From NCBI RefSeq assembly GCF_000022485.1, contig NC_012623.1:682001-746000 (forward strand): a stretch of DNA of 64,000 nucleotides. The letters are read 5' to 3'. The translations under genes were made by a program, and so were the position numbers. Origin of the DNA: Sulfolobus islandicus Y.N.15.51 (GTDB lineage: Archaea; Thermoproteota; Thermoprotei_A; Sulfolobales; Sulfolobaceae). Positions 7,857 to 46,144 of the stretch are shown piece after piece (the first letter of the stretch is position 1; the number at the start of each line of letters is the position of its first letter). The notes beneath the pieces were generated by a model, which was not told the DNA's origin, did no database searches, and worked only from the letters and a program-made list of their open reading frames with translations.

Positions 7857-7995
7857 TGGGCCCGGCGGGACTCGAACCCGCGACCACTGGGTCTCTCCTC
7901 TCCAGATACACTTCATCCCCATAAAGGGTCTTTAGACCCAATGTCTAGCATTAATATCTGGAGCCCAGCACTCTACCTGGCTAAGCTACGGGCCC
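7857..7995 (-). tRNA. tRNA-Trp (CCA) with a 65-nt intron
   Basis: The acceptor stem is GGGCCCG/CGGGCCC with discriminator A at 7857; the T arm, D arm and a CTGGG/CCCAG anticodon stem are intact. The loop reads CTCCAGA with anticodon CCA. The intron follows loop position 37 or 38, occupying 7892-7956 (65 nt, with a one-base ambiguity), the usual archaeal bulge-helix-bulge position. The 65-nt length equals the intron I remember for S. solfataricus tRNA-Trp. The 3' CCA is not encoded. Inside the intron a GGATGAAG stretch faintly resembles a box C, but I cannot assign a guide RNA. Confidence 0.95.
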
Positions 7996-8058: not shown

Positions 8059-8442
8059 TTAACTTGAAGTTTTACCTTTAATTTCGTTTACTCTCTTAAC
8101 TATTTCGTCAACTAAATCCTTAGCCTCGCCAGGCTCTAAGATAGCAGCAGATGCTGTAGCCACTTGCAACCCACAAGCTTCACCTAAAGCTTTTTTAGAG
8201 GAAACGTACACATAAGGTATCTTTTTCTCATCGCATAGCAATGGTAAGTGTGCAACTATTTCCTCTGGTTGTACATCTTCAGCAATAACTACTAATTTAG
8301 CTTGTCCCCTTTCTACTGCTTTTGTTGTCTCATTTGTACCTTTCTTTATTTTTCCACTTTCCTTAGCTTTTCTTACTGCCTCCAATACCTTATCTGCTAG
8401 ATCTTGCGGTACTTCAAACTTAACATAACTAGCTTTTGACAT
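8059..8442 (-). CDS. rpl7ae: Ribosomal protein L7Ae (kink-turn-binding protein)
   Basis: A complete L7Ae/L30e-fold protein, with the RNA-contacting segment [12 protein letters not shown] and the [12 protein letters not shown] strand. It binds kink-turns in 23S rRNA, box C/D and H/ACA guide RNAs and RNase P. An upstream in-frame ATG at 8451 exists, but the Shine-Dalgarno GAGGAGG abuts it directly and lies 9 nt before the ATG at 8442. The 127-residue start is therefore preferred, which matches the usual family length. Confidence 0.95.
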
Positions 8443-8449
8443 CGCGTTC

Positions 8450-8458
8450 ATCCTCCTC
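8450..8458 (-). promoter_or_regulatory. Strong Shine-Dalgarno that decides the L7Ae start
   Basis: On the minus strand AGAGGAGG lies immediately before ATGAACGCG-ATG. It touches the first ATG, which is too close for initiation, and is correctly spaced for the second. This is one of the few strong ribosome-binding sites in a window where most first genes look leaderless. Confidence 0.6.
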
Positions 8459-8614
8459 TAGTTTCGTCACGCAACTCTTTAAAAGTATTAGCAAAAAATA
8501 AAGTTTACTATAGAATAAAGCAAAAGCTTAGCCCTTTTAGGTGGAGATAGGTGTCATCCAGGTTTTGGAGTCTATAAATATAAATTTCTATATTTATATT
8601 GAGAGTTTTTGTTC

Positions 8615-8759
8615 TATGTTCCGATAGTGTCGTCATTTGTATATAATTTCATTAATTGAGGCTAATCTCTGGGTCGAGAAGATACTAAGATAAAGTTATT
8701 ATATGCCTTATTTTAATATAGAAATATAAATAGCTTAATGATGACACTATCTATGTTCC
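8615..8759. mobile_element. 129-bp MITE with 15-bp terminal inverted repeats and 8-bp target duplication
   Basis: Terminal inverted repeats at 8623-8637 (GATAGTGTCGTCATT) and 8737-8751 match at 14 of 15 positions. The perfect 8-bp direct repeat TATGTTCC flanks them at 8615-8622 and 8752-8759. The 99-bp interior is AT-rich with no open frame. This is a small non-autonomous transposon that inserted recently enough to keep its duplication intact. The size resembles the SM3 class of S. solfataricus MITEs, which I name only as a likely match. It lies between rpl7ae and gltX, about 75 bp beyond the 3' end of gltX. Confidence 0.85.
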
Positions 8760-8833: not shown

Positions 8834-10564
8834 TTAATCGTGTGAAAAGATTACAGAGACCATATTACCGTCTTTCTTGTCCACTCTTACAAATCCAAAT
8901 CTATAAAATTGCACAATTTCATCTATCTCCAAATCCTTTACAATTCTTTCTGCATAACCATTTATTATTTTTATATCATCTCTTTCCGCTTTTTCTACTA
9001 TTACTGGAACTTTTTCGTCCGATTTTACCCATTGAACTATTCTTGCATTGACTTTCTTAGCCTCATCTAACGTCTTACTGTGAAAAACAAGCTTACGATT
9101 ACGCTTATCAACTCTGACATTACACAACTCCATTAACCTCAATACGCTACCATCCTCTGCATCGATAGATTCTATCAAAATTTTATCACCAGAATTAACA
9201 ATGATAGTTCTATCCACTTCCTCTTGTTTAGAAGGAATTAAGGGTATCTTAGCTTTCAACGTTTGAGGTAGCTCAATGGCAAACTCTTCCCCATCTTTTA
9301 TGAACATTATTCTTTTAGCTACTGGATCTAATTTTTTCCTATTAATCGCAGCAATGTTTTCGAAACTTATAGTAGCATCAGTTACCTTTACTCCAACATC
9401 AATTATCACATCTTTAATAGTATCTGGTAAGATTCCCCTTCTTCTGAGTCCAGCCAAAGTTGGTAGCCTAGGATCATCCCTATTGGCACCCTTCTCTAGC
9501 ATTCCTCTTATTTTCGACTTACTCATCATAAAACCCTCAAGTTTTAGTCTCCCAAACTGTAAGACTTCTGGAAATTCCCATCCCATATACTCAGAAATGT
9601 ACCTCTGTTTTTCCGTATTCGACATATGTTCTTTAGCTCTTAATATATGAGTAACACCAAGTTCATGATCATCTATTATAGAAGCGAAGTTATAGGTAGG
9701 CCATACATAATACTTACTCCCTACTCGTGGATGAGGATTTTTAGTAGTATCAATTATCCTAAGCATTACCCAGTCTATTTGAGAGGGATCCGGATCCATT
9801 AAATTGGTCTTTAACCTAACCACAGCTTCTCCCTCTTTGAACATTCCTTCTAGCATTTTTTCAAAAAGTTCTAGGTTACTCTCTGGTGAAGAGCTTCTAT
9901 GTAGACATTCTGGCTCCCTCATCTTGCCTCTACTGTCTCTAAACTTCTTGAAAGTACTAGAATCACATGTATCAACATAAGCATGTCCCTTTTCTATCAG
10001 ATAACGAGCATACTTGTAGTATACCTCAAGTCTCTCTGAAGCGTAAAGCTCTTGTTCCCATTTAATCCCCAACCATTTTAGATCCTCCTTAATCCAATCA
10101 TATGCGTCTAGAATTGGTCTTTTAACCTTAGGATCCGTATCATCAAACCTCAGTATGAATTTACCGTTATACATCTTGGCGTATTCGTAAGATAAGATAG
10201 CAGCTCTGGCATTTCCTAAATGAAGAGGACCGTCTGGATTAGGTGCGAATCTAGTTACCACTTGTCCTCTAACGTTAGGAAGGGGTGGTAATATTTTCTT
10301 TTTTTCTTCGTGCTTCTTCTCTTCTAATAACTCAGGATACTTAGTCTCAATTTCAGCTATTTGTTGCTCCAAGGTTAGTGAATTAACTTGATCTATAATC
10401 TCCTTGACAATTTTTACTATTTCTTTTGCATTAGATCTTAATTCCGGCCTCTCTGCTATGATCTTACTCATCACCGGGCCCGCTTCAGCTTTACCATCAT
10501 GCTTTACCGCGTTTTGAAGAGCGTATTTATATATAATTTCCCGTAGTTCACTTGATGACATCAA
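8834..10564 (-). CDS. gltX: Glutamyl-tRNA synthetase (archaeal)
   Basis: 576 residues. The class I signatures are PLHLGNARA (HIGH-type) and MSKSKI (KMSKS), after an archaeal N-terminal extension of about 100 residues. The C-terminal half is the GlnRS-like beta-barrel anticodon domain found in archaeal and eukaryotic GluRS. It makes Glu-tRNA-Glu, and in archaea also Glu-tRNA-Gln as the precursor for the amidotransferase. Its start overlaps the end of the upstream HAD phosphatase gene by 17 bp. Confidence 0.95.
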
Positions 10565-12468: not shown

Positions 12469-12591
12469 GCCCATCCCAGCTTGGTGGGGCTGCGGATCCT
12501 CACGGTATCCACGGCCCCACCAACGTGAGTGGCTTAACTTCCGGGTTCGAAATGAGTCCGGGTGTTGCCCGCTCACTGTGGCCGGGTGGGC
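12469..12591 (-). rRNA. rrf: 5S ribosomal RNA
   Basis: The minus-strand RNA begins GCCCACCCGG and ends CTGGGATGGGC, giving the closing helix I. The conserved loop segments GAACCCGGAAGTTAAGCC and the helix IV/V GC-rich arm are present. The length of about 123 nt is normal. In Sulfolobus the 5S gene stands apart from the 16S-23S operon, as it does here. Ends are set by helix I and may be off by one or two bases. Confidence 0.95.

Positions 12592-45804: not shown

Positions 45805-46144
<340 letters not shown>

Follow-up and report, generated by a model that had tools for sequence, protein, structure and literature searches.

A 129-bp MITE of IS1-family type between gltX and the ribosomal protein L7Ae gene of Sulfolobus islandicus Y.N.15.51

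Between two housekeeping genes of Sulfolobus (Saccharolobus) islandicus Y.N.15.51 lies a short stretch of DNA in which inverted repeats are enclosed by direct repeats, raising the question of what kind of element this is, what could have moved it and where it came from. The initial annotation read it as an intact MITE whose clean ends imply recent movement by a transposase acting from elsewhere in the genome, and proposed that this reading be checked against further copies in the same and related genomes, an IS with matching terminal repeats, and strains with an empty site. The genome consists of a main contig of 2,812,165 bp and a smaller one of 42,245 bp; the window, i.e., the whole stretch of 64,000 nucleotides that was analysed, covers positions 682001-746000 of the former. 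The element is intergenic, located between gltX and the L7Ae gene (Table 1), both of which read leftwards; 74 bp lie between the right-hand TATGTTCC and the stop codon of gltX (8834), and 163 bp between the left-hand one and the start codon of the L7Ae gene (8451).

Table 1. Features of the 129-bp element and its neighbouring genes, in window positions.
Feature	Position	Strand	Evidence
Ribosomal protein L7Ae gene (flanking, outside the element)	8059..8451	-	TIGR03677, 187 bits (cutoff 134.6)
Left target-site duplication TATGTTCC	8615..8622	+	Single copy at the equivalent place in S. shibatae B12
MITE body, 129 bp	8623..8751	.	Full-length relatives in G029, G012 and others
Left terminal inverted repeat GATAGTGTCGTCATT	8623..8637	+	Identical to ends of some own-genome IS1-family copies
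35 bp matching IS1-family left end, including TATA-like TTTATATTT	8717..8751	-	Up to 97% identity over 34-35 bp
Right terminal inverted repeat GATAGTGTCATCATT	8737..8751	-	One mismatch relative to the left repeat
Right target-site duplication TATGTTCC	8752..8759	+	Sequence and repeat reading
Glutamate--tRNA ligase gene gltX (flanking, outside the element)	8834..10564	-	NF003169, 830 bits (cutoff 516)

Other features of the window were recorded alongside. Rfam reported two long tRNA genes on the minus strand, at 7857-7995 (139 nt) and 46046-46142 (97 nt), possibly with introns, neither of which was reported by ARAGORN in its bacterial setting, and a 5S ribosomal RNA gene at 12471-12589 (-), which stands isolated from other rRNA in the window.

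Reading of the sequence and its repeats bore out the anatomy given in the initial annotation, with its one-mismatch ends and perfect 8-bp duplication: the element is bracketed by two direct repeats of TATGTTCC, and its inverted arms of 15 nt, separated by 99 nt, match at 14 of 15 positions (93% complementary). The right arm ends in TC, so that the direct repeat can also be drawn as 10 bp (TCTATGTTCC, 8613-8622 and 8750-8759); its length is fixed at 8 bp by the inverted ends and by the duplications of 8-9 bp seen at related elements. No frame of at least 60 amino acids was found within the 129 bp, which carry no transposase gene. When the window was scanned for pairs of 15-bp inverted ends, mismatched at no more than one position, roughly 60-600 bp apart and immediately enclosed by a perfect 8-bp direct repeat, this structure was the only one of its kind. 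The element combines inverted ends, a target duplication with an empty site, shortness and a multi-copy family across genomes, and is a genuine MITE of IS1-family type; its initial reading as a MITE was right in kind, given its IS1-family ends, its duplication length and the empty site.

Eleven matches to the 129 bp were found in the same genome, of which one is full length, and the other ten cover only the last 28-40 bp and are ends of IS1-family elements. A second full-length copy was not found in this genome and no local amplification was seen, which counts against the explanation preferred below. The IS with matching ends is present as a 796-bp type of IS1-family element, presumably ISC796-like, with 15 copies at 99% identity or more; the transposase frame is open in 12 of the 13 copies examined (the remaining one, L169, is broken), and exact 8-9 bp duplications occur at 11 of the 15. 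Its transposase scored 107.2 bits against the NCBIfam IS1 model (NF033558, cutoff 100), and the IS1 Pfam domain scores were slightly below their gathering cutoffs (23.1 vs 24.1). The MITE and this IS share their 15-bp ends and their duplication length, and the last 35 bp of the MITE match the first 34-35 bp of IS left ends, whereas the IS differs from the MITE by its length of 796 bp and its transposase gene. The right 35 bp of the MITE are clearly IS-like and its left end is clearly so only over the 15-bp inverted repeat, beyond which it resembles IS right ends weakly, a further point against the preferred explanation. The end sequence of the 15 near-identical copies is GTCGTCGTT, not GTCGTCATT; the MITE-like GTCGTCATT was found in IS copies of G012 (a congeneric species) and in an older open-frame copy of the same genome (G000:C1:1189143), which has a MITE-like left end and a decayed right end. 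Because the near-identical copies end in GTCGTCGTT and the right end of the older copy has decayed, the IS partner of the MITE is proposed at family level only.

Target duplications of 8-9 bp are characteristic of the IS1 family. Exact duplications of this length were found at 16 of 55 MITE-sized elements (a set that includes a few of a second, ~130-bp MITE type) compared to 16 of 2970 mismatched flank pairs, and at 20 of 33 IS-sized elements compared to 27 of 1056 mismatched pairs; both size classes together, 36 of 88 related elements carry an 8 or 9 bp duplication. The absence of an exact duplication at 39 of the 55 MITE-sized elements again speaks against the preferred explanation.

As GAGTGTGGA flanks many element ends, the possibility that the true ends lie 9 bp further out, at GAGTGTGGA, was tested on the 88 elements. 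An 8-bp repeat outside this extension was found at L146 only, the other duplications lying at the 15-bp ends or at most one base away, and the extension was rejected for the window MITE, whose flanks do not contain GAGTGTGGA. L146 itself (G012:C1:1960980-1961775) is an IS copy with inverted GAGTGTGGA on both sides and, further out, TATTATTA as a direct repeat of 8 bp, an arrangement that perhaps arose from recombination of two nested insertions.

An empty site, with one TATGTTCC, is found in Saccharolobus shibatae B12 (G013), where both flanks (96.9% and 96.4% identity) join exactly at that single copy. In the congeneric G014, G016 and G017 there is no room for the MITE between the flank matches, the intergenic DNA being too diverged for an exact junction to be read, and in G012 and G015 the flank matches are too short or absent for the comparison. 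The empty site in S. shibatae B12 sets the upper age of the insertion, and it is in this sense, as movement after the split from that strain, that the movement can be called recent. The perfect duplication alone is no proof of recency, because at a flank divergence of ~3.5% about three quarters of insertions that old would keep identical 8-bp copies (0.9825^16), so that intact copies are expected even at the age of the S. shibatae split.

Among 31 Sulfolobaceae genomes, 15 contained a match to the 129 bp, many of them to the IS end only. The further copies anticipated in the initial annotation are located outside the host genome: at least 28 full-length relatives at 86-93% identity are present in G029, which belongs to another genus (28 of the 28 scored, of 122 candidates), and one at 92% in G012. 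Subfamilies at ~70-79% were identified in G012, G013, G019, G026, G028 and G030; we take G030 to be Sulfurisphaera tokodaii strain 7, which would make G028-G030 members of the genus Sulfurisphaera. Identity of gltX to the window gene is 99% in G013, 87% in G014, 74% in G012 and 68% in G029, and a MITE that is non-coding and 92-93% identical in the latter two genomes is therefore out of line with vertical descent. A tree of 54 of the 55 rows (L125 left out) placed the window copy without support, its nearest rows by path being one G029 copy and the G012 copy, and the argument for horizontal arrival is built on the identity contrasts between MITE and gltX, not on this tree. Most likely the MITE came horizontally and inserted once after the S. 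shibatae split, and another species is its most likely source because the subfamily has been amplified in another genus. Plasmid and phage collections, which may omit near records of the host genome, gave no match to the MITE at E 1e-5, and a degenerate pattern of 28 bases derived from it matched nothing exactly among viral contigs, where near records may likewise be omitted.

We consider it very probable that the element is an IS1-family-type MITE, mobilised in trans, which most likely entered from another species and, once the lineage had separated from S. shibatae B12, was inserted a single time between gltX and the L7Ae gene. From the ends and the duplication length that it has in common with the IS, we infer that an autonomous element moved it: the ends common to MITE and IS would be bound in trans by a DDE transposase of IS1 type, which would join the MITE ends to staggered cuts 8 bp apart, after which gap repair at the staggered target would produce the TATGTTCC duplication. 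A transposase acting from elsewhere in the same genome, as initially suggested, would be consistent with the intact IS copies found there; since horizontal arrival is likely, this source can only be inferred, and the donor transposase may have been that of another cell.

Two other readings of the locus concern its reality and its ancestry. Short repeats are common in AT-rich DNA, as is generally known, and the structure could in principle be a chance combination of an inverted and a direct repeat; however, no such structure occurred in 200 simulated windows of the same composition (first-order Markov), and full-length relatives as well as an exact empty site exist, so that this reading was rejected as having a negligible probability. 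Vertical descent would make the MITE native to Saccharolobus, its cross-genus identity being due to independent retention of an active sequence and its other local copies having been lost. The 92% copy in G012, within the same genus, the more distant subfamilies (74-79%) in G012 and G013, and a tree that gives no resolution around the window copy are in agreement with such a history, but we regard it as unlikely, since non-coding DNA is 93% identical to that of G029 although gltX is only 68% identical, and the host genome lacks a second full-length copy.

Another reading considered is domestication: the MITE would act as a regulatory or RNA element and, by its insertion, alter the expression of the L7Ae gene or gltX, with a TATA-like box retained from the IS transposase promoter and pointing towards the L7Ae gene. 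The TTTATATTT of the IS left end is indeed retained on the minus strand of the right arm, and the single strand folds better than shuffled sequences (z -4.5 and -3.7). Against this, the fold can be explained by the 15-bp inverted ends, which are present in any MITE, no pairs were predicted in a consensus fold of 32 copies (one row, L125, being misoriented in the alignment), and S. shibatae, which lacks the MITE, has the stretch that precedes the L7Ae gene between 8440 and the insertion site. Rfam gave no match over the element, and an RNA gene or structured RNA was rejected on this ground and on that of the consensus fold; the regulatory reading as a whole appears quite improbable. In IS1-family elements TTTATATTT precedes the transposase start, and judged from its sequence it may be a promoter element. 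That a subfamily of MITEs, after amplification in one genus of Sulfolobaceae, crossed to another and came to lie next to the L7Ae gene, to which its retained transposase promoter now supplies an extra promoter, is a scenario to which we give similarly little credence.

Sulfolobus MITEs have been described before. In S. solfataricus P2 four MITE families, SM1-SM4, have been reported (PMC10969869), and the available part of a study of ten S. islandicus genomes mentions only two MITE classes, SMN1 (320 bp), whose partner is ISC1733, and SM3A (164 bp), whose partner is ISC1058 (PMC3718332). As far as the accessible text of that study describes them, SM1-SM4, SM3A and SMN1 resemble the window MITE in being short, non-coding, provided with inverted ends and moved by the transposase of a resident IS (PMC3718332). 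The window MITE, with its 129 bp and IS1-family ends, agrees with neither SM3A nor SMN1 in published length or IS partner, a distinction made by description and not by sequence. The literature searched, to which the core subscription literature on Sulfolobus MITEs did not belong, contained no description of the 129-bp element, and a related family may already have been named, the comparison with the SM families being one of published length and partner only.

The MITE is real but of an ordinary kind, and its closest copies in another genus hint at a jump between species. What the locus offers is a MITE family common to several Sulfolobaceae genera and tied to an IS1-family element of which the same cell carries intact copies, together with an insertion dated by a clean empty site. 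In these archaea, which are amenable to genetics, trans-mobilisation and movement between genera can thereby be put to the test. It is otherwise an ordinary mobile-element insertion, of which the cross-genus distribution is modestly interesting.

A second MITE type, of 130-131 bp, is present in the same genome at G000:C1:229852-229981 (L019), 2116324-2116454 (L040) and 2030156-2030286 (L044). It is similar in size to the window MITE and has near-identical inverted ends (GATAGTGTCGTTATT), but differs in its core, and none of these three copies has an exact duplication.

The targets of these elements also show recurrent sequences. IS1-type elements and MITEs frequently share the target AGTGTGGA (e.g., L032, L130, L143 and L155), which, with at most one mismatch, lies within 12 bases of 39 of 200 element ends and resembles the outermost part of a different repeat, GAGTGTGGACAACAATTT. 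Several element ends abut a stretch ending in CCTATATAGGA, including L106, L100 and L116 (G029) and L006 and L038 (own genome). This stretch is probably the end of another IS, and in some ends a recurring hairpin-like sequence (GGAGAGTATTACTCTCC or a near variant) comes before it.
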